Assembly (NCBI GenBank): GCA_008501635.1 | Contig: QQUJ01000030.1 | Location: forward strand, 124,001 to 188,000 | DNA length: 64,000 bases | From: Pseudomonadota bacterium | Lineage (GTDB): Bacteria; Pseudomonadota; Gammaproteobacteria; QQUJ01 | Reading direction: 5' to 3' | Shown here: positions 4,932 to 64,000 of the stretch, piece after piece | How the letters are laid out: each line of letters starts with the position of its first letter | Position numbering within the stretch: position 1 is the first letter of the stretch | Notes under the pieces: generated by a model | The model's input: only the letters and a program-made list of their open reading frames with translations | Databases searched by the model: none | Told to the model about the DNA's origin: nothing | Made by a program: the position numbers and the translations under genes

Positions 4932-4984
4932 GAACCTATCTCAACATCCCCAGCGTGCTGTGTAGGGGACTGAGAGATAGGTTC
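4932..4984. repeat. Palindromic intergenic element, copy 1
   Basis: A 53-bp imperfect palindrome starts GAACCTATCTC and ends GAGATAGGTTC. It fills the gap between the kinase gene and the msrQ stop codon, and its right end reaches that codon. A related palindrome with similar ends (GAATCTATCTC...GAGATCGGTTC) lies at 58872-58942, so this is a dispersed element rather than a chance hairpin. It could also act as a transcription terminator for msrPQ. Confidence 0.65.
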
Positions 4985-5622: not shown

Positions 5623-5654
5623 CGGTGTCGGTTACCGGTGGCCACAACCATCGC

Positions 5655-6605
<951 letters not shown>

Positions 6606-26600: not shown

Positions 26601-26943
26601 GGCGCACGATGGACTGGGTGCGATCCTCACCCACCTTGAACTCGACACTGAGGATCGCTTGCCCCGGGCGCGACATCGAATAAATGTGATTGACCCCTTC
26701 GATCTCGGAGAGCACCTGCTCGAGGGGTGTGGTCACCAAATGCTCCACCTCTTCAGCGCCCGCGCCCGCGAAAGGCACGAAGACGTTGACGAGGGTGACG
26801 TTGATCTGCGGCTCCTCCTCGCGCGGCGTGACCACGACGGCGAACAGGCCCAGCAGCAGACCCACCAGGGCCAGCAGCGGGGTGATCTCACTGTGGAGAA
26901 ACGTGCGGGCGATACGCCCCGAAATACCCAATTTACCGATCAC
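23692..26943 (-). CDS. RND-family efflux transporter permease
   Basis: This 1083-aa proton-driven inner-membrane pump has twelve expected transmembrane helices and two large periplasmic loops. Family features are ITPLLALVGLLLGLFAVVVT at the first helix, LVTTPLEQVLSEIEGVNHIY, the proton-relay Asp pair in SIGILVDDAIVVVENIHRHW, and the second-half ATSMIGMIALAGIIVRNSIL. It belongs with the AcrB/HAE-like and heavy-metal branches; substrate class is not clear from reading. The start codon overlaps the end of the adaptor gene by 4 nt, so the two form an operon. No outer-membrane TolC gene is nearby. The operon promoter carries a palindrome in its spacer. Confidence 0.92.
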   Translation of the reverse strand: MIGKLGISGRIARTFLHSEITPLLALVGLLLGLFAVVVTPREEEPQINVTLVNVFVPFAGAGAEEVEHLVTTPLEQVLSEIEGVNHIYSMSRPGQAILSVEFKVGEDRTQSIVRLYNAIYSNQDWLPANLGVGQPLIKPMGIDDVPIVTGTLWTDDPQRGGDELLRVAHAIEAELKRVPGTRDIYTIGGPDRVVHVQLDPQRMAGMGVGIDDLRQALGGANHSAEAGAVVAANQEITVQAGEFLSTAVEIARLIVGLRDGAPVYLEDVATVRLGPDQPEQYVWFGTGQAAATKGITRQGTFPAVTIAVAKKPGTNAVTIAEQVIQRFEALRGTFIPEGVHVTVTRNYGATANDKAQTLIKKLIFATGAVVLLILFTLGRREAFVVGSAVVITLAATLFASWAWGFTLNRVSLFALIFSIGILVDDAIVVVENIHRHWAMGNKSLIESIPVAVDEVGGPTILATFTVIAALLPMAFVTGLMGPYMSPIPINASAGMLISLAVAFVVTPWFTHRMLRHQDHLQGHGGEENLQLYPLFQRLMGPFLDEGKGRRRRWLLTLVLMVMIIFSGGLAAVQWVVLKMLPFDNKSEFQVVVDMPEGTAAERTAAVLSELGAHLATVAEVTDYQAYVGTASPINFNGLVRQYYLRRGAHVGDIQVNLLDKDERDRKSHEIALAVRGPLTAIGQRMGANVKVVEVPPGPPVLSPLVAEVYGPNYAGQMAVARELRNRFIATTDVVDVDDSIETAATKWVLRVDRQRAGLLGLAQQDVVAAVTAALGGEDVSYLHDAKAKYPIPVRLEFSVADKADLLPLLDLRLRSRDGALVPLGEVVQVIEGTREQAIYHKDLLPVVYVTGDLAGPLDSPLYGMFDLFAQLHKEPIGDFGMLPQHLIAQPDDPYRYSIKWDGEWQVTYETFRDMGIAYSVGLVLIYLLVVAQFRSYLVPLIIMAPIPLTVIGVLPGHALLGSQFTATSMIGMIALAGIIVRNSILLVDFINHELARGVEFAEAVIRAGAVRARPIMLTGAAAMLGAFFILDDPIFNGLAIALIFGVLVSTLLTLVVIPVMYYALMQRRFAGDMPPAAGQKERL

Positions 26944-27986
26944 GGGGCAGCCCGCCCCTGTTTCAGCACCGCCGCTGCCGCCACCGGATTCAAAGCGACG
27001 CGCTCGTTCTCCTCGAGACCGGCCAGCACCTCGACCTGCCCGTCAGGCCCAGGGCGCCCGGCACGGATCTGGCGCAGCAGCACCCCTCCGTCCGCGCCGA
27101 TCACGTAGACCGCGGTCAGTTCGCTGCGCTGCACCACCGCCGCGCGTGGAATCAATAGCCGTTGCTCGGCCCCGGTGGGCACCATCACCTTCACCATCAT
27201 GCCCGGATTCACTCCCTTGATACCGGCAGGCAGCTCGACACGCACACGTACCGTATGGCTGGCCGCATCGGTGAAGGGAAATACGGTCATCTGCGCGCTG
27301 GCGATCGCCAATTCGCCGCCGTCGGGCAGCAGCACCGTTACACCCCGATCGCGCTGCAGCTGGGCGATGACCTGCTGCGGCAGGGCGGCGGTAAGGCGCA
27401 GCTGCTCCAGCGAGAGCCCCGCCATCAGCGGCTGGCCGACCGTGACCGATTCGCCGACCTCTACAAGTCGCTTGACCACAATGCCGGCGTAGGGTGCGCG
27501 CACCTCGGTGTAGCCCAGCAGTTCCTCGGCACGCTGCAGGCCCGCTTGTGCGGAATCCGCGCGCGCCTTGGCGGCCTGAAGATCGGCCTTGGCTCGATCC
27601 AGGGCAGACTTGGAGACCAGGCGTCGCTCGTAGATCTGCTCTACCCGCTCGAACTCGATCTGCGCCTCGCTGAGGCGCACTTCGGCCTCGCGCAACACGG
27701 CTTGGGCGACTTCGAACTGGGTGCGCTGTTCGGTGTCTCTGAAACTGATGATCACCTTGCCGCGCGGCACATAGTCGTGGATATCGAAGTAGATCCCGAC
27801 GATGCGCCCGTTGATCTGGGCCGACACGGTGGCCTGGTTGACCGCCTCCACCGTCGCGTCGAAAACGCGTTGCTTAGGCACAGTCTGATAAGCAGCGGCC
27901 GCGGTCTGCAACTCAGCCGTTGCGCCCAGTCCGCTCCAGGCGAGAAGAGAAACAATTACCAACCAACGTCCGGATCGTTTCCGCAT
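26940..27986 (-). CDS. Periplasmic adaptor subunit of the RND efflux pump (HlyD/MFP family)
   Basis: The membrane fusion protein connects the RND pump to an outer-membrane channel. The 348-aa product has a signal peptide (MRKRSGRWLVIVSLLAWSGLGATA). The lipoyl-like halves are around ATVSAQINGRIVGIYFDIHD and GYTEVRAPYAGIVVKRLVEV, separated by a long alpha-helical hairpin (residues about 75-150, rich in Ala, Glu and Arg). A beta-barrel and a membrane-proximal domain follow (VNPGMMVKVMVPTG, LLIPRAAVVQRSE). It is the first gene of the operon and lies directly downstream of the palindromic promoter at 28028-28055. Confidence 0.92.
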   Translation of the reverse strand: MRKRSGRWLVIVSLLAWSGLGATAELQTAAAAYQTVPKQRVFDATVEAVNQATVSAQINGRIVGIYFDIHDYVPRGKVIISFRDTEQRTQFEVAQAVLREAEVRLSEAQIEFERVEQIYERRLVSKSALDRAKADLQAAKARADSAQAGLQRAEELLGYTEVRAPYAGIVVKRLVEVGESVTVGQPLMAGLSLEQLRLTAALPQQVIAQLQRDRGVTVLLPDGGELAIASAQMTVFPFTDAASHTVRVRVELPAGIKGVNPGMMVKVMVPTGAEQRLLIPRAAVVQRSELTAVYVIGADGGVLLRQIRAGRPGPDGQVEVLAGLEENERVALNPVAAAAVLKQGRAAP

Positions 27987-33409: not shown

Positions 33410-34519
33410 CTAGCCGGGTAGCGTCGGGAAACCAGGCCGTGGCCCGATATCGAAGCGATCCCGATCGTAGAGCGGCCGACTCTGGACATAGGCGGTGAGC
33501 AGCCGGACCAGCGATTCAAGAGCATTGCAGTGGATGCGCTCGTAGCCATGCGAGGCGTCGATACCGAAACAGATCAACGAGGTGCGCAGATCATTGCCCG
33601 CCTCGACGGCAGCAGCACTGTCGGAGCGATAGTAACGAAAGACATCGCGCTGGTGGGGGATCGCAAACTCCTTGCACAATTCCAGCAGCCGATGGGTCAG
33701 ATGGTAATCGAAGGGTCCGGTCATATCGGCCATGGCAATGGTCACACCAAACTCACTGGAGTTCTGCCCTGGGGCGGTCGTGCCGTTGTCGATAGTCACC
33801 ATCTCGGCTACGTCCTGGTGCAGGACGGCCGAAGCGCCCGATCCTACCTCCTCGGAAATGGTAAAGAGCAGATGACAGTCAACCGGTAATCGGATATCCG
33901 AGTCACGAATCGCCTTCGCCAGGGCAAACACGACCGCGGCGCCCGCCTTGTCGTCGAGGTGGCGCGAATTGATGAAACCATTGCTGTGGAATTCAGGGAT
34001 CGGGTCGATGGCGATGGTATCGCCGACGTGAAAGCCGAGACGCATCAGGTCAGCGCGACTGGCACACAGCTCATCCACGCGCACCTCAATATTGTCCCAG
34101 GCCACCTTTTGTGAATCGATTTCCGGACCGAAGGTGTGCCCCGAGGCCTTCAAGGGCAGCAGGGTGCCGCGGTGAGACCTTTCGTCGGTAAATACCGTGA
34201 CCCTTGCACCCTCGGCGAACCGCGCGTTCCAGTGCCCGATGGGCACGACCTCGAGCCGCCCGTTCTCCTTCAGCGCCTTGACCATGGCGCCCAGCGTGTC
34301 GAGATGGGCGACGATAGCCCGATCGGGGCTTTCGCGTTCTCCCTCGATGGTGGCGCGGATCGCGCCGCGACGGGTAAGTTCGAAGGGTATGTTCAGCCGC
34401 TCCAGTTCATCGCACGCCAGATGCACGATACGGTCCGTGTACCCGGTGGGACTGGGAGTCTGAAGCAATCGGGCAAGGGTATCCAGCAGATAGCCCCGAT
34501 CGATCGGGGGCAGCTTCAT
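33410..34519 (-). CDS. M42-family peptidase of the NAGGN osmolyte system
   Basis: This predicted zinc aminopeptidase of the M42/M20-like fold has 369 aa. Metal-binding motifs are IVAHLDTLGAMV, NSRHLDDKAGAAVVFALAKA (bridging Asp), TISEEVGSGASAVLH (Glu pair), and the C-terminal CFGIDASHGYERIH. The particular sequence is that of the peptidase always found with NAGGN biosynthesis genes. It may trim or recycle the dipeptide; its exact job is not established as far as I know. The start overlaps the end of the synthetase gene by 4 nt, so it is the third gene of the cluster. Confidence 0.9.
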   Translation of the reverse strand: MKLPPIDRGYLLDTLARLLQTPSPTGYTDRIVHLACDELERLNIPFELTRRGAIRATIEGERESPDRAIVAHLDTLGAMVKALKENGRLEVVPIGHWNARFAEGARVTVFTDERSHRGTLLPLKASGHTFGPEIDSQKVAWDNIEVRVDELCASRADLMRLGFHVGDTIAIDPIPEFHSNGFINSRHLDDKAGAAVVFALAKAIRDSDIRLPVDCHLLFTISEEVGSGASAVLHQDVAEMVTIDNGTTAPGQNSSEFGVTIAMADMTGPFDYHLTHRLLELCKEFAIPHQRDVFRYYRSDSAAAVEAGNDLRTSLICFGIDASHGYERIHCNALESLVRLLTAYVQSRPLYDRDRFDIGPRPGFPTLPG

Positions 34520-36267
34520 GCGATCCCCCTCCTGTGGGCGCCACGGGAGGCGGTTTGCGGGAACAGCAGATCGATAAAACGCTCGGCGGTCGGCTGAGGT
34601 TCATGATTCGCCAGACCGGGCCGCTCGTTGGCCTCGATAATCACGTACTCCTCACCCCTTACATCGGGGACCAGAAAATCGAGTCCCACCACCGGGATGT
34701 TGAGGGCCTGGGCAGCCGCCACCGCAGCGTTGCGCAATTGCGGATGCAACTGCGCGGTAACGTCGTGGATGGTACCTCCAGTGTGCAGATTGGCGGTCTT
34801 GCGCACTTCCAGTTCCTGATTGAGCGAGAGCACATCATTCAATGCATACCCCTCCTGGCGGACACTGCGTTCGGTTTCACCGTCGAGCGGGATACGACTC
34901 TCCCCCCCGGTCGCGGCAGCGCGCCGGCGGCTCTGCTTCTCGATCAGCTGGCGGATGGTGTGGCGGCCGGTTCCGACTATCGCCGCTGGTCGCCGCACCG
35001 CGGCCGCGACCACCTCAAACCCGATCGTGATTATGCGCAGATCCAGACCGGTTACGTAGCGCTCGAGCAACACGGTATCACAGTGGCGACGAGCCTCCGC
35101 GATTGCGCGCTCCATCTCTTCGACGGTGGCGACCCCCACGCTGATCCCCGTACCCTGTTCACCGCGCGCCGGTTTCACAACGATTCGCGTGTGGAGTGAC
35201 AGGAAACGCCCGTTCTCAGCGGCGGCCCCTGCCACCTGCTGAGGCGGCACCGATAGGCCCGCCTCCGCCAGCAGGCGGTGCGTCACCCGCTTGTTGTCGC
35301 AACGACTCATCGCCACCGCGGTGGTGAGCTCCGAGAGTGATTCACGGCAGACGATCGTGCGCCCGCCCAGCGACAAACTGAAGTAGTTATCCTCCTCATC
35401 CAGCACCTGCACCGCGATACCGCGGCGCCGCGCTTCGCGGACGATAATCGATGCATAAGGATTCAGTGCTTCCTCCGGTTCCGCCGCAATGTACAGTGGC
35501 TCGTTGAAAGCGTTCTTGTTTTTCAGGGCGAACACCGGAACACGAACGAAACCGAGCTTCTCGTACAGTGCTATCGCCTCGTGATTGTCGTGCATTACGG
35601 AAAGGTCGAGAAATGACCGCCCGCGGGTCAGAAAGTACTCGGCCAGGAACCGCACCATCGCCTCGCCGACGCCGGGCAGCCCGGTTTGCGGATCGACCGC
35701 CAGGCACCAGAGACTGGCACCGTTCTCCGGATCGTTGAACGCCACACGGTGATCTATACCTGTCACCGTCCCGATGATCTGCCCGCTGCCCACCTCCTCC
35801 GCCACCAGATAGGTGAGGGTACGCGAATCGCGTTTGGCCCAGAGAAAGTCCGGATCGACCTGTACCATTTGACGCTTGGCGTAGAGCTCGTTGATCGCCC
35901 GCGCGTCCTCGCGCGCGAGCATGCGCCGCACGATGAATCCCTTGGGCATCTCATCACTGGTTTGATAACGATCGAGCCACAGGCGATAGGTGTGGGAGGG
36001 ATCGAGGAACAGTTCGTGGGGTGCCATGGCGATGACGACATGCGGATCGCGCAGGTACATGCCGATATCACGCCTGCCCGGTTGCTCGGATTGCAGCGTT
36101 CGAGCCAATTTCTCATTGCTGCCGAAGGTGTGCGCGAATATCAGGTGTCCCCAACCGCAATCGACGGTGACATCCGATTTGTACTGCTCCACCGCAGGTC
36201 CCTGCAGACGTTGCCAGTTTCTAACCGAAGGCGCGTTGCGACGTTCAAAACGATGCTTCTTGACCAT
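34516..36267 (-). CDS. N-acetylglutaminylglutamine synthetase (GNAT + ATP-grasp)
   Basis: This is a 583-aa fusion enzyme for the osmoprotectant N-acetylglutaminylglutamine amide (NAGGN). The N-terminal half (about 60-280) holds a GNAT acetyltransferase domain (FIVRRMLAREDARAINELYA, WCLAVDPQTGLPGVGEAMVR, LYEKLGFVRVPVFALK). The C-terminal half (about 300-575) is an ATP-grasp ligase similar to the cyanophycin/glutathione synthetase type (RIVVKPARGEQGTGISVGV, VGTGRHTIRQLIEKQ, YVIIEANERPGLANHEPQPT). It is the middle gene of the cluster: amidotransferase upstream with a 295-bp gap, peptidase downstream with a 4-nt overlap. Confidence 0.92.
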   Translation of the reverse strand: MVKKHRFERRNAPSVRNWQRLQGPAVEQYKSDVTVDCGWGHLIFAHTFGSNEKLARTLQSEQPGRRDIGMYLRDPHVVIAMAPHELFLDPSHTYRLWLDRYQTSDEMPKGFIVRRMLAREDARAINELYAKRQMVQVDPDFLWAKRDSRTLTYLVAEEVGSGQIIGTVTGIDHRVAFNDPENGASLWCLAVDPQTGLPGVGEAMVRFLAEYFLTRGRSFLDLSVMHDNHEAIALYEKLGFVRVPVFALKNKNAFNEPLYIAAEPEEALNPYASIIVREARRRGIAVQVLDEEDNYFSLSLGGRTIVCRESLSELTTAVAMSRCDNKRVTHRLLAEAGLSVPPQQVAGAAAENGRFLSLHTRIVVKPARGEQGTGISVGVATVEEMERAIAEARRHCDTVLLERYVTGLDLRIITIGFEVVAAAVRRPAAIVGTGRHTIRQLIEKQSRRRAAATGGESRIPLDGETERSVRQEGYALNDVLSLNQELEVRKTANLHTGGTIHDVTAQLHPQLRNAAVAAAQALNIPVVGLDFLVPDVRGEEYVIIEANERPGLANHEPQPTAERFIDLLFPQTASRGAHRRGIA

Positions 36268-36562
36268 TAGCGTGACGTCCTATCCTGTGTATCTGTGCTC
36301 CATTGCCGACTCGCGACCAGCGTCCCGATACCGCTCCGTGATGCCGCCGGATTCACAGCGCGCAAAAAACGCATCTTCGACGCGCGCTGCCCCCAGGGCC
36401 GGTTAGCGCCATACGGAGAGCCAACCCGCGGAGAGGCAGCCGGTTCCCCGCACGGTCGCAATGTCCTTCTGTTGATGAACGGCAGGCACACGGTGCCCGG
36501 TGCACCTGATCCTGCAAAAAACCGGCCTTGGCCGATGGATATCCGCATCGTGCCGACCGACC
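36268..36562. other. 295-bp gap inside the NAGGN cluster
   Basis: No gene, strong promoter or terminator is evident here. Reading frames open on both strands encode Arg/Pro-rich sequence typical of non-coding GC-rich DNA. Neighbouring genes of this cluster are usually tightly packed, so the gap may hold a second promoter for the synthetase-peptidase pair. Confidence 0.4.
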
Positions 36563-38335
36563 CTAGACACCCTGCCCCTGCAACCACAGTTCCAGCAGTG
36601 CCACCTGCCAGAGCTTGGAGCCGCGCAAGGGGGTGATGTGTTCTTCAGGGGCGGCAAACAATGCCTCGACATAGGGCGCATTGAACAGCCCACGTTCACG
36701 CGCAGCCCGGTTGCCCAACGCATCGCGCACATATTCCAGAAACGGTCCCTGCAGATACTTCAGGGCCGGTACGGGGAAATAGCCTTTGGGCCGATCGATC
36801 ACCTCCTGGGGAATGAAGTTGCGCGCGACCTCCTTGAGAATGTATTTGCCCCCCGCGGCCACCTTGTGTTCGGCCGGAATGCGGGCAGCCAGCTCCACCA
36901 GTTCGTGGTCGAGAAACGGCACCCGCGCCTCCAGCCCCCAGGACATGGTCTGACTATCGACCCGTTTGACAGGATCATCGACCAGCATGATGGTGGTATC
37001 GATGCGCAACGCCTTGTCGAGAGGCTCCTGAGCGCCATCCTGCGCAAAGTGCTCGCTGAGGAAACGCCCGCTGTGGTCTGCACCACACAACGGCTCCGCC
37101 ACCACCCGGCAATACTCGGCGTGATCACGGTCGAAAAAGACCCGCGCATAGTCGGCCACCGGGTCGTGACTGCCCATCAACGGCGGATACCAGTGATAGC
37201 CGCCGAATACCTCGTCGGCGCCCTGTCCGCTCTGCACCACCTTGACGTGTTTGGCTACTTCGCGCGACAGGAGAAAGAAACCGATGTTGTCATGGCTGAC
37301 CATCGGTTCGGACATGGCCCGAATGCAGCGGGGTAACTCCTCTAGTGTTTCGCGGGCATCGATGCGTATCTTGTGATGCGCCGTCGCGAAACGCTCGGCA
37401 ACGAGATCGGAGTATTGGAACTCATCGCCCTCCTCGTCATTGACGCTTTCAAAACCGATGGAGAAGGTGTTGAGTCCCTGCTGACCCTGCTCTGCCAGCA
37501 TTCCGACGATAAGACTGGAATCGACACCACCCGAAAGCAGCACGCCAACGGGAACATCGGCTACCAGGCGGCGTTTCACCGCGGTCATCAGCGCATCGGT
37601 CAGCAGCGCCTGCCACTCACCGAAACTGCGCCGCTCATCGTCCTCGCCGCGTTCGAACCGCAGGCTCCAGTAGCAGCGCTGTCGAGTGCGGCCATCCGCC
37701 TCTATGTGCATCAGCGTTGCCGGCGGCAGCTTCCTCGCACCCTTCAGTATCGTCAGCGGCGCAGGCACCACGGAGTGAAAGGTCATGTAGTGATGCAGGG
37801 CCACTTCATCGATAGCGGTATCGATGCCGCCGCCTTGCAACAAGGCTGGCAGTGTCGAGGCAAACCGCAGCGCGCCGGCGGTCTGCGTGTAGTAGAGCGG
37901 TTTGATACCAAGCCGATCACGCCCCAGGAGCGCCCGCCCCGAATCGCGCTCCCAGATCGCGAACGCGAACATGCCGTGAAAGCGCTGCACGAAATCCTCA
38001 CCCCAGGCGTGGTAGGCCTTCAACACCACCTCGGTATCGCCGGTCGAGAAGAAACGATAACCCTTACCTTCCAGCTCGCGGCGCAGTTCCGGGTAGTTGT
38101 AGATCATGCCGTTGAAAACGATCCCCAGACCGAGTTCGCTGTCGACCATCGGCTGCTGGGCATGCTCGCTGAGATCCACGATCTTCAACCGCCGATGCCC
38201 GAAGGCGAATCGCCCCTGATGAAAGAGACCCGATGCGTCCGGACCGCGGGGCGCCTGCGCCGCGTTCATCGCTGCCACGGCGCCACTGTTCGCCAGCCCG
38301 TGATCGAATCGTATCTCTCCTGCAATACCGCACAC
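36563..38335 (-). CDS. N-acetylglutaminylglutamine amidotransferase (AsnB-like)
   Basis: This class II glutamine amidotransferase resembles asparagine synthetase and amidates the NAGGN dipeptide. The 590-aa protein begins MCGIAGEIRFDHG, so the catalytic Cys is residue 2 after a GTG start at 38335 (GAAGGT upstream). The glutaminase domain has RGPDASGLFHQGRFAFGHRR and NGMIYNYPELRRELEGKGYR. The synthetase domain has the PP-loop VGVLLSGGVDSSLIVGML and SGQGADEVFGGYHWYPP. The family-specific sequence matches the amidotransferase of NAGGN clusters rather than general AsnB. It is the first gene of the cluster. Osmotic control is expected, but no operator can be named. Confidence 0.92.
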   Translation of the reverse strand: MCGIAGEIRFDHGLANSGAVAAMNAAQAPRGPDASGLFHQGRFAFGHRRLKIVDLSEHAQQPMVDSELGLGIVFNGMIYNYPELRRELEGKGYRFFSTGDTEVVLKAYHAWGEDFVQRFHGMFAFAIWERDSGRALLGRDRLGIKPLYYTQTAGALRFASTLPALLQGGGIDTAIDEVALHHYMTFHSVVPAPLTILKGARKLPPATLMHIEADGRTRQRCYWSLRFERGEDDERRSFGEWQALLTDALMTAVKRRLVADVPVGVLLSGGVDSSLIVGMLAEQGQQGLNTFSIGFESVNDEEGDEFQYSDLVAERFATAHHKIRIDARETLEELPRCIRAMSEPMVSHDNIGFFLLSREVAKHVKVVQSGQGADEVFGGYHWYPPLMGSHDPVADYARVFFDRDHAEYCRVVAEPLCGADHSGRFLSEHFAQDGAQEPLDKALRIDTTIMLVDDPVKRVDSQTMSWGLEARVPFLDHELVELAARIPAEHKVAAGGKYILKEVARNFIPQEVIDRPKGYFPVPALKYLQGPFLEYVRDALGNRAARERGLFNAPYVEALFAAPEEHITPLRGSKLWQVALLELWLQGQGV

Positions 38336-56464: not shown

Positions 56465-57703
56465 TCAGACCGCTTCGAGTTTTCGCATCCCCTTGGGTAA
56501 CAGACGCAAATCCACCAGACTCGATACCAGTGCCGACCAGATGTTGGCCTCCTCTTCGTAGACCAGCCGGTAGTACTCGACTTTCATGGTCAACACGCTG
56601 CCAAGGATGATGCCGGCCAGTGCGATCATCGAACCGAGCGCCATCGTCGAGACACCAGTCACCCCCTGGCCGATCGAGCAGCCCATCGACAGCACACCAC
56701 CGATGCCCATCAGTGTCCCTCCGATGACATGGTTGACGAAATCACCCCAGGAGCGGAACCACTCGAAGTGAAAATGTTTGGTTACCACCGAGTAGGCGAA
56801 CGATCCAAACACGACACCCGAAATGACCATCATCCCGAACGATATCAGGTGCCACTGGACGGGGAGTATTTCAAAGGGGTCCAACTGCACCTGCTGGGTA
56901 TACCAGTAACCCCATTCGCCGGTCGGATTGATGAAGGTCAGCGACTGCGGCGCAACGCCGACCGGGGGTTGATCCATGAAATCCGCGAACTCCTTCCACT
57001 CTGCACCGATGCTGCCACCCGTGATGTACCAGCCCACGACCACCAGAATGCCGACGGCGCCACCACCCAGGAAGAAGTCAAAGCGCTCGCGGAAGTGCTC
57101 CGAGCGCAGGATGACGACAAATAGCGCCAATGCAACTGCACCCGCCAGTACCCAGCGCAGTGTGGCAGACGCCTCGATTCCCAGCATCCCGGACAGTAAA
57201 ACGCTTATCTCCTGGCTCTCGATACCGAACCGGGCCAGATCGATACTCAGCGGCTGGATCCAGCTGTGGAAGACGAGGCCGTAGAAATCGGTTTTGGTCA
57301 TGATGTACGCCCAGGTGCCCATGACCGTGAACACCACAATCGATTTAATGTTGCCCCCACCCATGCGAATGGAGGTCATGTTGCCGCAGCCACTGCTCAG
57401 CGTCATGCCGACGCCAAACATGAGGCCGCCCAGAATAAACCGCGGCCACATGAAATTGGAGCTGCGATAGGGAGGCAGCGTGGTACTCATGTCGACCACC
57501 CCGGTCATCTCCATAATCAGGACGCCGGTTATGGCAATGGCGATGGCGAATCCCCAGGCGCCCAGGCGCCCGTAGTGACCGATATTGATCCAATCAGAAA
57601 CCGCGCCCAAGGTGCAAAACCCGGTTTTGCGAACCGCAACACCGAGTACGAAGGCCAGCACCCACGCGCTGGCCAAAACCTGATGGGTAATATTCCACTC
57701 CAC
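56465..57703 (-). CDS. YeeE/YedE family (thiosulfate transporter-like) membrane protein
   Basis: This polytopic inner-membrane protein has 412 aa from the GTG at 57703 (GGGGGAG directly upstream). It contains the two half-repeats of the YeeE/YedE family with the conserved Cys motifs: VRKTGFCTLGAVSDW, GVGMTLSSGCGNMTSIRMGG, and GGVLSMGCSIGQGVTGVSTM. Members such as TsuA import thiosulfate by relaying it along these Cys residues; others move related sulfur compounds. The substrate here is inferred from family only. The gene is convergent with queC and divergent from the Met-rich gene at 58087, with which it shares a 383-bp intergenic region. Confidence 0.88.
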   Translation of the reverse strand: MEWNITHQVLASAWVLAFVLGVAVRKTGFCTLGAVSDWINIGHYGRLGAWGFAIAIAITGVLIMEMTGVVDMSTTLPPYRSSNFMWPRFILGGLMFGVGMTLSSGCGNMTSIRMGGGNIKSIVVFTVMGTWAYIMTKTDFYGLVFHSWIQPLSIDLARFGIESQEISVLLSGMLGIEASATLRWVLAGAVALALFVVILRSEHFRERFDFFLGGGAVGILVVVGWYITGGSIGAEWKEFADFMDQPPVGVAPQSLTFINPTGEWGYWYTQQVQLDPFEILPVQWHLISFGMMVISGVVFGSFAYSVVTKHFHFEWFRSWGDFVNHVIGGTLMGIGGVLSMGCSIGQGVTGVSTMALGSMIALAGIILGSVLTMKVEYYRLVYEEEANIWSALVSSLVDLRLLPKGMRKLEAV

Positions 57704-58086
57704 CGTTCTCCCCCTTCGCAGCAACCCTATAATTGTGTGCCCATTCTACCGGGGCTCCATCCCGGACAGCGCAATAAGGCTTAGAAGTTTTTTATATGAC
57801 ACAAAGCTACATTGATGACACTCACCTCGGTCCCCCACCTGCTGTCGACTCAGAATCAATACTCTATCGGCGCCAGGAGAACAAACCGCTGCAAGGCCCG
57901 CTTGCCCCGGACAGTCGGCACACGGAGAGCCGCGGGGTAACAAAACACCGCCACACGGCTGGATCGCTGTCTATCCCATACTGCCAGGTTGACTATCATC
58001 ATTTCAGTGTATTCTAATATACTGACTGGCTGAGGGGGCTTTAGATCGATTTTCTGTTTACAGCGTCAGCTATCGGGAGAACAGTC
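57704..58086. other. 383-bp intergenic region between YeeE/YedE gene and Met-rich gene
   Basis: No convincing gene is present; a 73-codon plus-strand frame at 57796-58017 lacks a ribosome-binding site and protein character. The right part holds a putative promoter with a palindrome (57989-58024). The left part should hold the promoter of the divergent membrane-protein gene, which I cannot place exactly. Confidence 0.5.
57989..58024 (+). promoter_or_regulatory. Putative promoter and palindromic operator upstream of the Met-rich gene at 58087
   Basis: TTGACT (57989-57994) is a good -35 element. The imperfect 20-bp palindrome CAGTGTATTCTAATATACTG (58005-58024) covers the expected -10 region, so spacing to a hexamer (TATTCT or TAATAT) is ambiguous. 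Its core AGTGTATTCTAATAT differs at two of fifteen positions from AGTATTTTCTAATAT in the RND promoter at 28028-28055. It lies 62 bp before the start codon. Confidence 0.6.
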
Positions 58087-58773
58087 ATGAAAATTCAGCG
58101 TATCACGAAGTCTGTATTTGCCACACTGCTATTAGCGGCGGTGGCCGGTGCGGGGATCTCAGCCGAGCCACCCCCGGGCACCGACGCTCGAACGCAGGCA
58201 ATGGAGCACAAGTTCGAGAAAGCGAAACAATACTACGGGGAATGCCAGGGCGTTGATCAGGGCGACTTTGAAAAGATTCGCCCGCACCTGAAAGCCTTCA
58301 CGGACATGGAGGTGATGGCGGAATACATGTCAGATCCTGCCAAGTTCGCACAGTTGGCGCAGACTATCTACGACCCGCGCACCATCCACGTCATGATGAA
58401 ATGCTCCACCGAACCGGTCATGTGGGATACCTGGATGAGCGGCATGACCGATTTCGACAAAATGATGCGCACCGCCATGCGCTTCATGAATCCCGCGATG
58501 TACATGAACTGGATGATGGCGCCCATGAATCCCAACGTCTGGGGACCGATGATGGGGATGATGGATCCCAACATGATGGCTCGCTGGACGACAGCCATGG
58601 CGAACCCCGCTTTCTATCAGCCATTCTTCGCGCCAATGGACCCCAACTGGTACACACCGCGTATGCAATGGATGATGGATCCGCGCAGCATGCAGCCCAT
58701 GTTCAACATGTTCAATATGCCGAACATGATCCCCGGGCAGCCCACCGCCGTACCGGTGCAGCCTAACCAGTAA
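58087..58773 (+). CDS. Exported Met-rich repeat protein, 228 aa
   Basis: No known family. A signal peptide (MKIQRITKSVFATLLLAAVAGAGISAEP) precedes a conventional-looking helical part (about 35-135) with two Cys, in YYGECQGVDQG and VMMKCSTEP. It also has repeated DPxxFAQLxQ/DPRTIHVMM-like turns. The second half is Met-, Asn-, Pro- and Trp-rich: MNPAMYMNWMMAPMNPNVWG, MMGMMDPNMMARW, MDPNWYTPRMQWMMDPRSM. The units resemble a looser form of the 9-residue repeat in the paralogues at 60077 and 60883. It is monocistronic, with a strong terminator behind and a palindromic operator before it. It is probably a periplasmic or surface protein. Confidence 0.85.
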   Translation: MKIQRITKSVFATLLLAAVAGAGISAEPPPGTDARTQAMEHKFEKAKQYYGECQGVDQGDFEKIRPHLKAFTDMEVMAEYMSDPAKFAQLAQTIYDPRTIHVMMKCSTEPVMWDTWMSGMTDFDKMMRTAMRFMNPAMYMNWMMAPMNPNVWGPMMGMMDPNMMARWTTAMANPAFYQPFFAPMDPNWYTPRMQWMMDPRSMQPMFNMFNMPNMIPGQPTAVPVQPNQ

Positions 58774-58795
58774 ACCACGCCGCGACGTAGGATCC

Positions 58796-58832
58796 GAAGG
58801 GTCGCCACTCCGGGTGGCGGCCCTTCTTTTTA
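58796..58832 (+). terminator. Strong rho-independent terminator after the Met-rich gene
   Basis: The stem GAAGGG-t-CGCCAC (58796-58808) pairs with GTGGCG-g-CCCTTC (58814-58826) around TCCGG and is followed by TTTTTAT. This is the clearest terminator in the window and makes the gene at 58087 a single-gene transcript. Confidence 0.9.
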
Positions 58833-58871
58833 TCCTCAGCAACCGCGACCCGGTAACGACCTCCCCTATCA

Positions 58872-58942
58872 GAATCTATCTCAAAATCCCGCGCCTGCTG
58901 AATTGAACCCCAGGGGTGCGCGGGGGATTTTGAGATCGGTTC
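58872..58942. repeat. Palindromic intergenic element, copy 2
   Basis: A 71-bp imperfect palindrome begins GAATCTATCTCAAAATCCC and ends GGGGATTTTGAGATCGGTTC. Its ends resemble those of the element at 4932-4984 (GAACCTATCTCAACATCCC), although the centres differ, so the two appear to be members of one dispersed family. Confidence 0.65.
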
Positions 58943-59439
58943 CTATCAACAGGTGCATTGTGGCATTTACCCGTATCCACGCGTGCGCCCGCCAGGTCCC
59001 ACACCCTCCACCGCCCGCTCACGCGTCGCGCCGATGTCACTGCGCCCTTCTGTCGATCCACGGCCCGTACTCGGTGTCCATCTGCATCAGCGCCCCGCGG
59101 GCGGGTCAATCCACCGTCACCGAGGATCATGATGCAACGGGCCACAGCGGGATCGCGAGGGCATCAGAAAGGGTTTGGGAACGTCACGACTTTCAGCCCT
59201 GGGCATCAAGACAAGGGCGATTCCAGAACACCGGGGTTGCGGTTTGGGTCGGAATGCAGAGTCAGCTACAAGCGAGTTTCGCTGGTCAGGGTTGAATTGC
59301 GCCCCGGGTCGAATGCACGCACAAGCACCACCCTCGATCAACACAGCGCAACGCTGCCGCGCAAAAGGCGGTCAATACGTCGCGACAATCGTGCGCGACA
59401 CTGCATGCGCCGCAGCTACCTTGAAAGAAAAAGAGGCGG
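58943..59439. other. Gene-free stretch in the Met-rich cluster
   Basis: About 500 bases lie between the palindromic element and the next terminator. Frames of 75 to 248 codons are open on both strands, but they are rich in Arg, His, Pro and Ser, have no ribosome-binding sites and contain no domain that I know. I see no promoter for either neighbour, no repeat and no RNA motif here. Confidence 0.5.
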
Positions 59440-59440
59440 A

Positions 59441-59480
59441 GGAAAAGGAAAACCCCGGACACATGATCTGCATCCGGGGT
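59441..59480 (-). terminator. Terminator of the Spy/CpxP-like gene
   Basis: On the minus strand, ACCCCGGA and TCCGGGGT (59473-59480 and 59452-59459) form a stem around a 13-nt loop, followed by TTTCCTTTTCC. It lies 20 bp after the stop codon of the minus-strand gene at 59501. Confidence 0.7.
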
Positions 59481-59500
59481 GGATTGCCAGGTGGCCGACC

Positions 59501-59986
59501 CTATCTGGGTGCTGCTGGGAAACCGGGCATCTGTCTACGCATGGCCTCCCATTTTTCACGCTGCTCCTTGGTGAAAACAGCGAGTTGTTTGTTGTAGGTG
59601 GCGATCGCGGCTTCAATCAACTGCTGTTGCAGTGCGAACATCTTGCCGTACATCGCACCTATGGCCTGCGGATCCGGGTTGGGCACCATCATCATACCGG
59701 GTAGTTTCTGGGCGACTTCCCCCATGCTCTTCATGGTGCCGAGACTGGCATCGCGCGCGGCGTTTCCGATCTCGGTCAGTTGCTGCAGTTGCTCATTGGT
59801 TAACCCGAGCACGGCCAGCGGATTGACCGCACCCATGGGTTGCATACCCGGCATCGCACCCGGCATTGGCATCATGGGTTGCTGCACGCCCATGGGCGGC
59901 ATGGGATATTGGGCAAAGACCACCCCTTGACCGAGCAACAGCACGGCGACAGTGAACAATCGGAGAAAACGATTGCGATTTAGCAC
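59501..59986 (-). CDS. Exported Spy/CpxP-like protein with Met/Pro-rich N-terminus
   Basis: This is a 161-aa exported protein. The GTG at 59986 has a perfect AAGGAG seven bases upstream; the longer frame is not needed. The signal peptide (FLRLFTVAVLLLGQGVVFA) is followed by a low-complexity segment (YPMPPMGVQQPMMPMPGAMP then GMQPMG). The helical domain contains two LTxxQ-type motifs, GLTNEQLQQLTEIGNAARDA and FTKEQREKWEAMRRQMPGFP, as in the periplasmic chaperones Spy and CpxP. Spy-type proteins respond to envelope stress and bind unfolded proteins; some relatives bind metals. The Met-rich head ties it to the surrounding genes. Confidence 0.82.
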   Translation of the reverse strand: MLNRNRFLRLFTVAVLLLGQGVVFAQYPMPPMGVQQPMMPMPGAMPGMQPMGAVNPLAVLGLTNEQLQQLTEIGNAARDASLGTMKSMGEVAQKLPGMMMVPNPDPQAIGAMYGKMFALQQQLIEAAIATYNKQLAVFTKEQREKWEAMRRQMPGFPAAPR

Positions 59987-60025
59987 GGTGCGCTCCTTCT
60001 CAATGAATGCTTGGGAAACAAACAA

Positions 60026-60054
60026 GCACCGGCCAGAGATACTCTGACCGGTGC
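60026..60054 (-). terminator. Probable terminator of the Met-rich repeat gene at 60077
   Basis: On the minus strand GCACCGG and CCGGTGC (60048-60054 and 60026-60032) pair around 15 nt and are followed by TTGTTTGTTT. An alternative smaller stem GTGCCG-TGTC-CGGCAC (60051-60066) overlaps it. Confidence 0.6.
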
Positions 60055-60076
60055 CGTGTCCGGCACTACAACCGGA

Positions 60077-60709
60077 TTACTTCTTAGCCTGCGGGACCTC
60101 GGCAGGTGCCGCAGGTGCAGCGCCGGCGGCCGGAGCCGTCTGAGGCATCATCTGCGTCCAGGCATTGGGGTCAAACCAGTTGAAGCCGGCAGCACCACCC
60201 GCCGCCGGCTGACCCATCGGCATGGTATAGGCACCGGGGTTCATCCAACTCATGTAGGTGGCGGGATTCATGAAGGCCGCGTAGGCGCCCGGATTCATCC
60301 ACTGCATATAAGCCGCTGGATTCATAAACTGGCTGTAGGCGGCCGGATTCATCATCTGCATATAAGTTGCCGGATTCATGAAAGCGGAGTAGGCGCCCGG
60401 ATTCATCCACGCCATCATGTTGTTGGGATCAGCAAACTGCATCCACCACTGCGGCTGCATGAACTGACCGTAGGTCGCCGGATTCATCATGGCCGGGTAG
60501 GTGGCAGGGTTCATGAACATCGCCCAACCGCCCGGATGCGCCAGATTGAACTGCGGCACGCCACCACCAAATCCCTGCACGGGTGCGGCACCACCGGGTG
60601 CGCCCATACCTCCAAACCAATTCGGCACCTGGGCCTGAGACTGCTGCGGAACAACGGCAAAACCAAGAGCCAATGCCAGTGTTAGTCCTACCAAATAGCG
60701 CTTAAACAT
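60077..60709 (-). CDS. Exported protein of tandem 9-residue NPxxYxxxM repeats (paralogue 1)
   Basis: No known family. The ATG at 60709 follows GGAGG, giving 210 aa. After the signal peptide (FKRYLVGLTLALALGFAVVPQQSQAQ), a Gly/Pro-rich segment leads to QFNLAHPGGWAMFM. Eleven 9-residue units then run from about residue 67 to 165: nine clear ones such as NPATYGQFM, NPAAYMQWM, NPGAYAAFM, plus two degenerate ones (QPQWWMQFA, DPNNMMAWM). Each starts with an NP turn and has an aromatic at position 5 and a Met at 9. The tail has FNWFDPNAWTQMMP and an Ala/Pro-rich end. It is divergent from its paralogue at 60883 across a shared palindrome. Probably periplasmic or surface-located. Confidence 0.88.
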   Translation of the reverse strand: MFKRYLVGLTLALALGFAVVPQQSQAQVPNWFGGMGAPGGAAPVQGFGGGVPQFNLAHPGGWAMFMNPATYPAMMNPATYGQFMQPQWWMQFADPNNMMAWMNPGAYSAFMNPATYMQMMNPAAYSQFMNPAAYMQWMNPGAYAAFMNPATYMSWMNPGAYTMPMGQPAAGGAAGFNWFDPNAWTQMMPQTAPAAGAAPAAPAEVPQAKK

Positions 60710-60751
60710 GACTTCCCTCCCGTTAGTAAAAAATCGGTGATGCTGCAAGTA

Positions 60752-60772
60752 AGTAGTATTTTAGAATATAGT
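60752..60772. promoter_or_regulatory. Putative operator between the two divergent Met-rich paralogues
   Basis: The AT-rich near-palindrome AGTAGTATTTTAGAATATAG (60752-60771) contains, on the minus strand, TATTCTAAAATACT. The site before 58087 has TATTCTAATATACT, 13 of 14 identical. TATAGT at 60767-60772 could serve as a plus-strand -10. Its place between divergent genes suits control of both. Confidence 0.55.
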
Positions 60773-60882
60773 TATATACGTATTTCAGGGTCTGTATCCC
60801 CTTCGGGGTGGAAATGGAAAATAATGTCTACTATTCGGTGATATGCAGGCTGTTTGGTACACCGGTATCGGAGGTCAATACA

Positions 60883-61500
60883 ATGCGTAACCTTTTGTTT
60901 TTTATGTTCTTTGTTGTTTTTTCGGTGAGCGGGACGTTGCAGGCGGCATCCGCGGGGGCAAGTGCGGCAAATCCCGCACAGGCGCCCTTCGATACATCCA
61001 CGGTGATGCCCATGGGCAATCCGTCATTGCAGTTCAACCTCGCCCGTCCAGAAGGTTGGGCAATGTTCATCGACCCCCGCGCCCACGCCTCCGCACATGC
61101 GGCATTGATGCATCCCGCGACCTACGCCCAGTTCATGCAGCCGCAGTGGTGGATGCAGTTTGCTGATCCCAACAACATGATGGCGTGGATGAATCCGGCC
61201 TCTTACACCACCTTTATGAATCCGGCCACCTACATGGGATGGATGAACCCCGCGCCGTACATGCACTTCATGAATCCTGCCATGTACATGCAGTGGATGA
61301 ACCCCGGCGCTTATACCGCCTACATGAACCCGGCCACCTACATGCAGTGGATGAACCCCGCCGCCTATGCTTTGCCCGGGACTCAGGCGGCACCTACCGC
61401 TGTTCCCTTCAACTGGTTTGACCCCACTGCGTGGACCGCAATCAACCCGTCGTACGCGGCACCGGCTGCTCCGGCGACGCCCGACAGGAAAGGTCAGTAA
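60883..61500 (+). CDS. Exported protein of tandem 9-residue NPxxYxxxM repeats (paralogue 2)
   Basis: This is the paralogue of the gene at 60077. The ATG at 60883 has GGAGGT seven bases upstream, giving 205 aa with signal peptide MRNLLFFMFFVVFSVSGTLQ. The pre-repeat QFNLARPEGWAMFIDP matches the sister protein. Then follow about ten 9-residue units (77 to 166): HPATYAQFM, the same two degenerate units QPQWWMQFADPNNMMAWM, NPASYTTFM, NPATYMGWM, NPAPYMHFM, NPAMYMQWM, NPGAYTAYM, NPATYMQWM, NPAAYALPG. The tail is FNWFDPTAWTAINPSY. It contains no Cys in the mature part. Function is unknown; it is likely co-regulated with the sister gene. Confidence 0.88.
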   Translation: MRNLLFFMFFVVFSVSGTLQAASAGASAANPAQAPFDTSTVMPMGNPSLQFNLARPEGWAMFIDPRAHASAHAALMHPATYAQFMQPQWWMQFADPNNMMAWMNPASYTTFMNPATYMGWMNPAPYMHFMNPAMYMQWMNPGAYTAYMNPATYMQWMNPAAYALPGTQAAPTAVPFNWFDPTAWTAINPSYAAPAAPATPDRKGQ

Positions 61501-61545
61501 TAGCGCTGCTCCGACCGTTCGCCTGGAAACAGGTTGCAGAAACCA

Positions 61546-61573
61546 GAAACGCGCCTGAGGCGCGTTTCTTCCT
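61546..61573. terminator. Hairpin terminator between convergent Met-rich genes
   Basis: GAAACGCGCC (61546-61555) and GGCGCGTTTC (61559-61568) pair around TGA and are followed on the plus strand by TTCCT. It lies between the stop codons of the genes at 61500 and 61594 and may serve both directions. Confidence 0.7.
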
Positions 61574-61593
61574 GACGCGGCAAACGTGGGGTG

Positions 61594-62589
61594 TTACTTG
61601 GCAGCAGGTTGGGTCGTTTGACCCGTGCCTGGCATCATCTGCGTCCAGGCTTTGAAGAACTGTTCGTACTGCTTGGGGTCCATCATCTGATTCATCGGCT
61701 GTCCACCCGGGGCAGCCATCCCTGGATTCATAGCGCCCATGGGATTCGTCGAGCCCATACCCGGGCTCATCATACCCATCGGGTTGCTCATGCCACCCAT
61801 CATCGGCGCCATCATCATGGGGTTCATCGGATTCATCATGCCCATGGGATTCGTCGAGCCCATACCCGGGTTCATCATACCCATCGGGTTGGTCATGCCG
61901 CCCATCATCGGTGCCATCATCATGGGGTTCATCATATTCATCGGATTCATCATGCCCATGGGATTCGTCGAGCCCATACCCGGGCTCATCATACCCATCG
62001 GGTTGGTCATGCCGCCCATCATCGGCGCCATCATCATGGGATTCATCATACCCATCATCGGCGCCATCATCATGGGATTCATCATGCCCATCATCGGCGC
62101 CATCATCATGGGATTCATCATGCCCATCATCGGATTCATCATCCAACTCATCGGGTTCATCATGCTGCTGGCAGGATTCATCATCGACATCGGGTTCATG
62201 GCCGTCCCGGGACTCATCATCGACAAGGGATTCATAGCAGTCCCGGGATTCATAGCAGTCCCGGGATTCATCATTCCCGTCCAGGCTGCGGGATTCCCCA
62301 TGGCTTGGTAAGACGAGTCAGCCATATTCAGATAAGCACCGTAGTCTTTCTGATACCGGGCGACGGTCTCCGCCTCGTGACACGCAGCGCAGGTACCAAT
62401 GGCCGGTTGTCCCTGCATCATCTGATTGACGACATTGCTCCAAACCGCGGGATCCATGCTCTTTGTTATGGCGTATGAGGTGGCCGGTGCGGCTGACGCA
62501 GGATCGGTCGCCGCCGCCGTTATGCCCAATCCTGCGTAGGCAGAGGTTACGACCAGCACCATGGATGAGACGGTTTGCTTAACCTTCAT
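61594..62589 (-). CDS. Exported Met-rich monohaem c-type protein with tandem repeats
   Basis: No known family. The 331-aa protein has a signal peptide (MKVKQTVSSMVLVVTSAYAG then LGITAAA). A short N-terminal domain contains one c-haem motif CAACH (Cys67, Cys70, His71) in a context of KSMDPAVWSNVVNQMMQGQP before it and YQKDYGAYLNM after it. From about residue 105 to 300 it is almost only Met, Asn, Pro, Gly, Ala, Ser and Thr: PGTAMNP repeats, three 12-residue MMNPMMMAPMMG units, then longer units around GMTNPMGMM and PGMGSTNPMGMM. The end (DPKQYEQFFKAWTQMMPGTG) echoes the NP units of the neighbours. The haem suggests an electron-transfer or redox-sensing role. Confidence 0.87.
   Translation of the reverse strand: MKVKQTVSSMVLVVTSAYAGLGITAAATDPASAAPATSYAITKSMDPAVWSNVVNQMMQGQPAIGTCAACHEAETVARYQKDYGAYLNMADSSYQAMGNPAAWTGMMNPGTAMNPGTAMNPLSMMSPGTAMNPMSMMNPASSMMNPMSWMMNPMMGMMNPMMMAPMMGMMNPMMMAPMMGMMNPMMMAPMMGGMTNPMGMMSPGMGSTNPMGMMNPMNMMNPMMMAPMMGGMTNPMGMMNPGMGSTNPMGMMNPMNPMMMAPMMGGMSNPMGMMSPGMGSTNPMGAMNPGMAAPGGQPMNQMMDPKQYEQFFKAWTQMMPGTGQTTQPAAK
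61741..62140. repeat. In-frame DNA tandem repeats within the Met-rich haem protein gene
   Basis: GGGATTCGTCGAGCCCATAC recurs at 61741, 61846 and 61960, defining long units with periods of 105 and 114 bp. From about 62017 to 62130 a 36-bp unit (CATCATCGGCGCCATCATCA then TGGGATTCATCATGCC) occurs three times almost unchanged. All periods are multiples of three, so copy-number changes would keep the reading frame. Confidence 0.85.
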
Positions 62590-62667
62590 AGTTAAATGTC
62601 CTTGACTTCTCGGTTGTCATCTCAGGCAATCGACCCCTGAGCCAAATTGCAGCGCCAGTACGGCGGG

Positions 62668-63666
62668 TCAGAAGTCGCCGGTCGCCGCGCCTTCCATAAT
62701 GTAGCGCATGGCGTTGCGGATGCGCTGCGCGTCGGCCCTCAACTCTTTGTCGAGCTCACTGTTGGGATTCTGCGCATAGTCCAACCAGTTGATGTCCCAG
62801 TCCATCGTCATTACCCAAAGCTTGCCCTCCCCATCTTCAAGCAGGGCGATGCGGCAGGGTATGAAGATGACGAACTCCGGCACGTAGTCGAGTATCTTGC
62901 GTGCGACGACAGCGTCGCAGAACTGAAAGATCTCGACGCGCGGTGTGTTTTCATCACCAGTGATGGCGCGCACGTCTTTCCACAAGGGACTATGGCCTAC
63001 GAGCTTGAAATTCACCTCGTTGGCACGCAGCTTCATGGAATCGACCGCATCGTCGAACGAGACCCCTTCCTCCACCGGAAGTTTGTCGGTCATGATGCTG
63101 ATCATGTCGCGCATGGAGAGCGGGCTCATCAGCATCATGCTCTGGTACATGCTGCGTTTCGCCTCGGTGGAAATGCTCTCTGAAACGGTATTTGGCTTCC
63201 AGTTTCGAAGGGTTTGCGTAGGGAAACCCGGTACTCGGATGGCGGGGATGCGATCCGGAACAGTGCCCTCGCCTTTGGCCAGATCGACCAGGTCCAATTT
63301 CTCTTGCTGCTCAGCTCCAGGCGTTGGCGTCAGCCCGAACATGAACCGCGGATCGGCCGCGCGCATCATCGCATCCATGACCTGGAAACGTGTCGCCTCA
63401 TCCATCGCAGGCCCCATAAAATGGTTACCCATGACGTTCATCCACTGGAACATCATCCCGGCATAGTTGGCATTCGGGTTGTTGGCATATGCCGGAGGTA
63501 ACTGGCCTGCCGAGTTTGCCACCCACTGAAAATCCATCCAAGGTACGGTTGGAGGTACTTGCGGTGCCGGCGCAGCGCCGGAGTTCGCAGCATTCTGCGC
63601 TCCAGCAGGCGTCACCCAGAATGCGGCTGCCAGAACGATTGCGAGGACATTCCTCAACGCCATCAT
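62668..63666 (-). CDS. Exported DUF302-domain protein with Met-rich N-terminal region
   Basis: This is a 332-aa exported protein. The ATG at 63666 has GGGGAG just upstream and gives a signal peptide (MMALRNVLAIVLAAAFWVTP then AGAQ). The next part (about 30-110) is Pro- and Met-rich, with YAGMMFQWMNVMGNHFMGPA and VMDAMMRAADPRFMFGL. The C-terminal half (about 195-300) is a DUF302 domain: VSFDDAVDSMKLRANEVNFK, then PRVEIFQFCDAVVARKILDY and VPEFVIFIPCRIALLEDGEG. DUF302 proteins have no settled function but are frequent in bacteria with sulfur metabolism. It lies 79 bp upstream of the Met-rich haem gene on the same strand, so the two probably form an operon. Confidence 0.85.
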   Translation of the reverse strand: MMALRNVLAIVLAAAFWVTPAGAQNAANSGAAPAPQVPPTVPWMDFQWVANSAGQLPPAYANNPNANYAGMMFQWMNVMGNHFMGPAMDEATRFQVMDAMMRAADPRFMFGLTPTPGAEQQEKLDLVDLAKGEGTVPDRIPAIRVPGFPTQTLRNWKPNTVSESISTEAKRSMYQSMMLMSPLSMRDMISIMTDKLPVEEGVSFDDAVDSMKLRANEVNFKLVGHSPLWKDVRAITGDENTPRVEIFQFCDAVVARKILDYVPEFVIFIPCRIALLEDGEGKLWVMTMDWDINWLDYAQNPNSELDKELRADAQRIRNAMRYIMEGAATGDF

Positions 63667-63777: not shown

Positions 63778-64000
63778 CTACTGAGTCGTATCCGACGGCG
63801 CTCCCGACAGGAGCTGCCCGAACCATGAAATCACGGTGAAAGGCGTGCTGCAGGCCACGGTCACCATGTCACTGATCATTTTGGGCATATCCAGGCATCC
63901 GGCGCTCTGGCCATACGGTTGATTCACCGGACAGGTGGATGACTGGCTGGTTTGGCCTGTAGGACACAGGAAAGTCTGACACTGCTGCGGTTCCGATGTC
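63778..64000 (-). CDS. Cys-rich protein, C-terminal 73 residues only
   Basis: The frame is open from the right window edge to a TAG at 63778-63780, so the N-terminus is outside. The visible part has four to five Cys: QCQTFLCPTGQTSQSSTCPV then NQPYGQSAGCLDMPKMISDM and VTVACSTPFTVISWFGQLLS. It has low charge, many Ser, Thr and Gln, and no membrane segment beyond a short hydrophobic end. The Cys spacing suggests disulfides in an exported protein. I recognise no family. It is co-oriented with the DUF302 and Met-rich haem genes and could belong to the same functional cluster. Confidence 0.6.
   Translation of the reverse strand, partial: TSEPQQCQTFLCPTGQTSQSSTCPVNQPYGQSAGCLDMPKMISDMVTVACSTPFTVISWFGQLLSGAPSDTTQ

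Follow-up and report, generated by a model that had tools for sequence, protein, structure and literature searches.

When the Sox system is truncated, sulfane sulfur stays on SoxYZ, and onward transfer of sulfur is the work of TusA and DsrE-type proteins. The import of sulfur for oxidation is stated to be poorly understood, with the YeeE-like SoxT1A described as importing sulfur for cytoplasmic oxidation (PMC11582611). DUF302 genes, together with YeeE/YedE or by themselves, have been reported from inside sox clusters (PMC11034169, PMC5248467). Sulfur globule proteins are known as well, and sgpD of Allochromatium vinosum has been described as a single-gene unit (PMC10386293). Here we analyse a 64,000-nucleotide stretch of a gammaproteobacterial genome, which we call the window (GenBank assembly GCA_008501635.1, contig QQUJ01000030.1, positions 124,001 to 188,000 of the forward strand). 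Close to its right edge it carries a cluster of six genes for exported proteins next to a YeeE/YedE gene (Table 1). This cluster is very probably a sulfur-oxidation module, and on balance we favour, as the explanation of the whole, a module with which Sox/rDsr sulfur oxidisers handle sulfur outside the cytoplasm. Genes are named by their first position in the window, and the products of 60077 and 60883 are called MNP proteins.

Four described systems come close to this cluster, specifically; 1) the sulfur globule proteins SgpA-D of A. vinosum, which are likewise exported, hydrophobic and repetitive, present as several paralogues per genome, encoded in their own transcription units and found in rDsr hosts, with sgpD adjoining an exporter gene for hydrophobic or amphiphilic compounds much as an RND exporter gene lies near the MNP gene in the L009-L018 group of loci (PMC10386293); 2) SoxT/TsuA, with which the YeeE protein of the window shares the Sulf_transp domain, three cysteines and a sox neighbourhood; 3) the DUF302 proteins of Acidithiobacillus, Thermithiobacillus and Sulfitobacter, encoded within or beside sox genes and in Sulfitobacter also with YeeE/YedE; and, 4) MrpX and BcrX, exported methionine-rich proteins of genomes that also hold MsrPQ. 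However, in each case there are differences. The MNP proteins have the regularly spaced prolines and the few charged residues (3-12%) of Sgp proteins, but the spacing is 9 residues, and 5-7 in the 61594 protein, unlike the P-X2-P of SgpD; moreover, the module includes linked DUF302, cytochrome and YeeE genes. The cluster-borne YeeE proteins are longer than SoxT/TsuA (380-419 against 330-350 amino acids), fall far under the curated TsuA cut-off (72.9 of 400 bits for that of the window) and, in the clusters read, are accompanied by methionine-rich DUF302 and cytochrome genes. Unlike its counterparts in other sox clusters, the DUF302 domain is here fused to a methionine-rich exported N-terminal region and paired with a methionine-rich cytochrome c. 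Finally, in contrast to MrpX and BcrX, there is no operon with MsrPQ and no MXKDX repeat, MsrP was not found in some bearers, the context is one of sulfur oxidation, and methionine is not the conserved working residue of the MNP family.

The genes that place this cluster in sulfur oxidation begin just past the right edge of the window, where soxZ and soxY lie at 0.2-1.1 kb on the same contig (locus L025), directly upstream of the DUF302 gene with the gene of a cysteine-rich exported protein between them, and tusA and dsrE2 follow some 13 kb further along. Elsewhere in the same genome, dsrA is found on contig C29 and soxA on C17 and C27. Related neighbourhoods recur in other genomes. In L064 (G213), genes for an MNP protein, a DUF302 protein with methionine-rich N-terminus, a methionine-rich cytochrome and YeeE are followed further on by tusA, fadL, a DUF3530 hydrolase gene and a rhodanese gene, while L065 and L066 (G043 and G184) hold dsrE2, the methionine-rich DUF302 and cytochrome genes and YeeE beside tol-pal-queE-queC, genes that also flank the YeeE gene of the window. 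In L081-L083 the cytochrome and DUF302 genes are divergent from soxX, soxY, soxZ, soxA, tusA, dsrE2, fadL and YeeE, and the contigs of G370, G374 and G376 that carry dsrA have soxA and a long DUF302 gene at a distance of 10-15 kb from it. In L013, L014 and L016 the MNP gene and the core share the same few kb, with genes for small cytochromes, a methionine-containing CxxCH protein, a TlpA-like protein, a short DUF302 protein, soxZ and soxY. A 58087-type gene adjoins the MNP gene in G086 and G210. In the L009-L018 group, G043 and G325, the MNP genes are apart from the DUF302, cytochrome and YeeE genes. These three are a constant core tied to soxYZ, and it is for the core that a conserved neighbourhood holds, against the scattered single homologues that would have refuted the original prediction; the MNP genes are more mobile.

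The distribution of the module follows that of sulfur-oxidation genes. Among 369 genomes drawn evenly from the class, MNP proteins were found in six and 58087-type proteins in seven, giving, with the long DUF302 proteins, eight bearers from five families (G000, G043, G086, G092, G184, G210, G213 and G325); a phylum-wide sample gave no further bearer. The module co-occurs with dsr and sox genes, one of the checks that the original prediction had suggested. dsrA exceeded the cut-off in 7/8 module genomes against 111/369 (Fisher p = 0.0012, or 0.0034 without the genome of the window, with the genomes related and the effective sample about five families), and in ten further MNP genomes it was full in nine and partial in the tenth. 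soxA was present in 14 of the 18 bearers, including all seven that are at least 90% complete and of good quality. MNP relatives were found in 12 public loci, all gammaproteobacterial, one of which comes from a described sulfur oxidiser, the Gamma 3 endosymbiont of Olavius algarvensis. The adjacent soxYZ, the conserved clusters with soxXYZA, tusA, dsrE2, fadL and YeeE, and the co-occurrence with dsrA and soxA together clearly favour a sulfur role.

The six predicted open reading frames are all present, with Sec-type N-termini as read by eye rather than by a predictor. Their description as methionine-rich holds for five of them (58087, 60077, 60883, 61594 and 62668), which head the 57 long products of the window by methionine content at 15.4, 11.9, 10.7, 26.6 and 7.5%, where the median across window products is 2.2%. 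The sixth, 59501 (10.6%), is a member of the Spy/LTXXQ family (PF07813, 35.1 bits, cut-off 24.3), whose methionine-rich part is limited to the start of the mature protein; it reaches only 23 of the 174 bits of the Spy equivalog and so is not Spy itself. Both the YeeE/YedE neighbour and the joining of a methionine-rich segment to DUF302 in 62668 (PF03625, 40.0 bits, cut-off 23) are as predicted, whereas in the 61594 protein a haem-c motif had been overlooked. Genes 58087, 59501 and 60077 each have a separate terminator, which recalls the single-gene unit of sgpD (PMC10386293).

Table 1. Features of the cluster and of related loci; positions are those of the window unless a locus is named
Feature	Position	Strand	Evidence
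YeeE/YedE (Sulf_transp) membrane protein gene, TsuA/SoxT-like	56465-57724	-	PF04143, E 2e-51
Exported Met-rich helical-repeat protein, DP/NPxxY repeats, two invariant Cys, 228 aa	58087-58773	+
Intrinsic terminator behind 58087 gene	58796-58826	+	14-bp stem, then T-run
Intrinsic terminator behind 59501 gene	59452-59480	-	12-bp stem, then T-rich tail
Spy/LTXXQ-family exported protein, Met-rich N-terminal tail, 160 aa, TTG start	59501-59983	-	PF07813
Intrinsic terminator between MNP protein 1 gene and Spy-like gene	60025-60055	-	14-bp stem
MNP protein 1, exported, Cys-free, nearly uncharged, NPxxY 9-residue repeats, 210 aa	60077-60709	-
Array of 9-residue MNPxxYxxF/W repeats, MNP protein 1 residues 66-164	60218-60514	-	Repeat dissection; 27/54-bp DNA periodicity
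MNP protein 2, paralogue of 60077, 205 aa	60883-61500	+	Sequence identity to 60077
Met-rich (27%) exported monohaem cytochrome c-like protein (putative), 331 aa	61594-62589	-	CxxCH invariant in 8 relatives
Haem-c motif CAACH, residues 67-71 of 61594 protein	62377-62391	-
Exported Met-rich N-terminal region joined to DUF302, 332 aa	62668-63666	-	PF03625
DUF302 core match, residues 237-289, invariant C250 and C271	62800-62958	-
Small Cys-rich exported protein, 94 aa, runs beyond window edge, between soxZ and DUF302 gene	63778-64000 (L025:778-1062)	-
soxZ	L025:1209-1520	Same as DUF302 gene	NCBIfam equivalog cut-off passed
soxY	L025:1551-2045	Same as DUF302 gene	NCBIfam equivalog cut-off passed
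FadL-type genes	L083:5300-6649; L082:10479-11861; L064:16077-17435; L027:4674-6005		PF03349

The two MNP proteins of the window are 67% identical over residues 37-203 (60% in alignment A1), have no cysteine, are 15-17% aromatic and consist of arrays of the 9-residue unit. In the family alignment, conservation is 0.88 for asparagine, 0.86 for tyrosine, 0.73 for methionine and, across the entire length, 0.65 for proline, the last rising to 0.86-1.0 at the consensus proline columns, and methionine is often exchanged for alanine, phenylalanine, isoleucine, tryptophan and others; the protein of L019 retains all consensus prolines and 35% of the consensus methionines. Since asparagine and tyrosine are better kept than a methionine that can be replaced, the pattern points more to a structural, hydrophobic NPxxY scaffold than to methionine chemistry. 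In the predicted structure the protein would be a chain in which every short helix starts with NP (predicted local distance difference test, pLDDT, about 60-80 within the repeats and 60 overall). A JmjN match in 11 of 17 members, below cut-off and 15 residues long, was set aside as chance on the NP motif. The 58087 protein had no match in Pfam, NCBIfam or the PDB and is, on sequence grounds, a new family. Its model is a similar chain with units of about 11-13 residues (pLDDT 67), and its profile matches that of the MNP family (97.9%, E 4e-13), which makes common ancestry likely, though unproven as both families are repetitive. A structure search found no PDB neighbour with E < 1 for either model; with no solved fold resembling them, the models suggest no function. 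G043 carries a second 58087-type gene (L042:7660-8208) a few kb from apparent cytochrome cbb3 oxidase genes.

The 61594 product, a putative methionine-rich exported monohaem cytochrome c, matched no known cytochrome c family or structure in Pfam, NCBIfam or the PDB. All eight of its relatives keep CxxCH and, around it, the K..DP.W and RY residues, and their methionine-rich tails range from long to nearly absent. In the DUF302 alignment two cysteines are invariant, and long relatives occur in G043, G184, G213, G370, G373, G374 and G376; neither the DUF302 nor the cytochrome profile had a match in PDB sequence searches. Three cysteines of YeeE (Cys37, Cys113 and Cys349) are invariant in seven cluster-borne relatives and fall in the alignment on the three of S. 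thermophila TsuA.

A FadL-type outer-membrane pore is encoded repeatedly, either between dsrE2 and YeeE or close to the module. It is possibly an outer-membrane route for hydrophobic sulfur, a role for which no supporting paper was found in the literature. In the Olavius Gamma 3 symbiont (L085:1-20000, L087) fadL-YeeE stand in the stretch just before the dsr genes, and the assembly has a several-kb run of N where its relatives have soxXYZA and the DUF302/cytochrome pair.

The original prediction had listed a coat for extracytoplasmic sulfur deposits among its candidate roles. A sulfur role is the part that now stands out, and the coat itself is compatible with all of the data; that the NPxxY/MNP and 58087 proteins form a coat or matrix for zero-valent sulfur is something we infer with the balance tipping neither way. 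A bolder version, which we hold to be less likely than not, is a dedicated periplasmic store-and-delivery machine, in which NPxxY solenoids would form a novel type of protein matrix surrounding zero-valent sulfur, and a methionine-rich haem protein with a DUF302 protein would be the missing link in mobilising it to a YeeE/YedE channel feeding DsrE2, TusA and rDsr. In the explanation favoured above, sulfide or thiosulfate would be oxidised to zero-valent sulfur outside the cytoplasm, where the hydrophobic, charge-poor MNP and 58087 proteins would assemble to bind and hold it. The cytochrome might then dock on the deposit through its methionine-rich tail and take electrons there, and the DUF302 protein, with its two invariant cysteines, might help to release sulfur to SoxYZ or straight to the three-cysteine channel, which would pass it to cytoplasmic DsrE2/TusA and rDsr; the electron step and the hand-over step are guesses.

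Several observations weigh against this proposal. For the module proteins the link to sulfur is one of genomic context, they lack the proline pattern described for SgpD, and their structural models reach moderate confidence. In the L009-L018 group, the neighbour of the MNP gene is an RND exporter and not sox genes. Of the dsrA-bearing genomes in the class sample, about 100 have no MNP protein, and the MNP proteins must therefore be dispensable for Sox/rDsr oxidation as such, and in G092, which has a 58087-type protein, dsrA was not found.

Of the other explanations, the one that survives best is that the cluster acts as a Sox accessory only. The DUF302 protein, the cytochrome and the cysteine-rich 94-amino acid protein would load, unload or reactivate SoxYZ, with sulfane sulfur passing to the YeeE channel without storage, and the MNP proteins would be an unrelated envelope layer, adjacent here by chance. 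The constant core, its tie to soxYZ and the loci in which the MNP genes stand away from it would suit this. However, the window and L064 have the MNP genes right beside the core, L013, L014 and L016 have them within a few kb of it, and sulfur-oxidation genes are found in almost every genome that encodes MNP or 58087-type proteins, such that we consider this account rather unlikely.

Two further roles in the original prediction relied on the methionines themselves. In the first, methionine-rich proteins oxidised by hypochlorite or other oxidants are recycled by MsrPQ, like MrpX; consistent with this, msrQ and msrP are in the window (4984-6602, both over NCBIfam cut-offs), MsrP is found in 14 of the 18 module genomes, and more than a quarter of the 61594 residues are methionine. 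However, msrPQ is some 50 kb from the cluster, which has sulfur genes immediately around it, searches for MsrP gave nothing in G086, G210, G377 or G325, the last with four MNP matches, and methionine is not the best-kept residue of the MNP family; we find such an oxidant sink quite improbable. In the second, methionine clusters bind Cu(I) for copper storage or delivery, as might be allowed by the dense methionine runs in the tails of the 61594 protein and of the long DUF302 proteins from G043 and G184. Yet the MNP family does not keep its methionines strictly, the cytochromes of L014 and L016 have lost most of the tail while keeping the haem motif, and no copper gene was recognised beside the module in the lineages read (by eye, with no profile search); we consider copper binding improbable. 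Least probable of all is a general hydrophobic envelope protein unrelated to sulfur, be it a coat, surface layer or Spy-like chaperone matrix, for although one member is Spy-like and, in the L009-L018 group, RND exporter and thioredoxin-like genes stand next to the MNP gene, the co-occurrence with rDsr and Sox and the repeated placement in sox clusters speak against it.

Some other features were seen in passing. In the Olavius Gamma 3 symbiont (L084) a purL-like gene is followed by msrPQ, with flavocytochrome c sulfide dehydrogenase and DUF302 genes about 8 kb off. Genes for an RND exporter and membrane-fusion protein at 23692-27986 of the window resemble the two found close to the MNP gene in L009-L012 and L018. 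A palindrome-like element of about 55-75 bp at 58868-58945 (ATCTCAAAATCCC...GGGGATTTTGAGAT), REP/BIME-type in appearance, is scattered over many contigs of the genome in at least ten copies that are 76-96% alike. At 33410-38335 there is, by eye only, a seeming N-acetylglutaminylglutamine amide (osmolyte) cluster, comprising genes for a peptidase, a GNAT/ATP-grasp protein and an asparagine-synthase-like amidotransferase.

In the literature searched we found no description of a methionine-rich family in sox clusters or sulfur globules, nor of the methionine-rich DUF302 protein, the methionine-rich cytochrome, the 58087 family or the MNP family. The mobilisation of extracytoplasmic sulfur inward for oxidation is a poorly understood step of the sulfur cycle, for which the module gives concrete candidates, namely conserved exported proteins of unknown families, present in at least five bacterial families and tied to soxXYZA, tusA, dsrE2 and a three-cysteine transporter. 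These data suggest that sulfur may be held, in some gammaproteobacteria from marine sediments and in some symbiotic ones, by a coat different from the one in purple sulfur bacteria.

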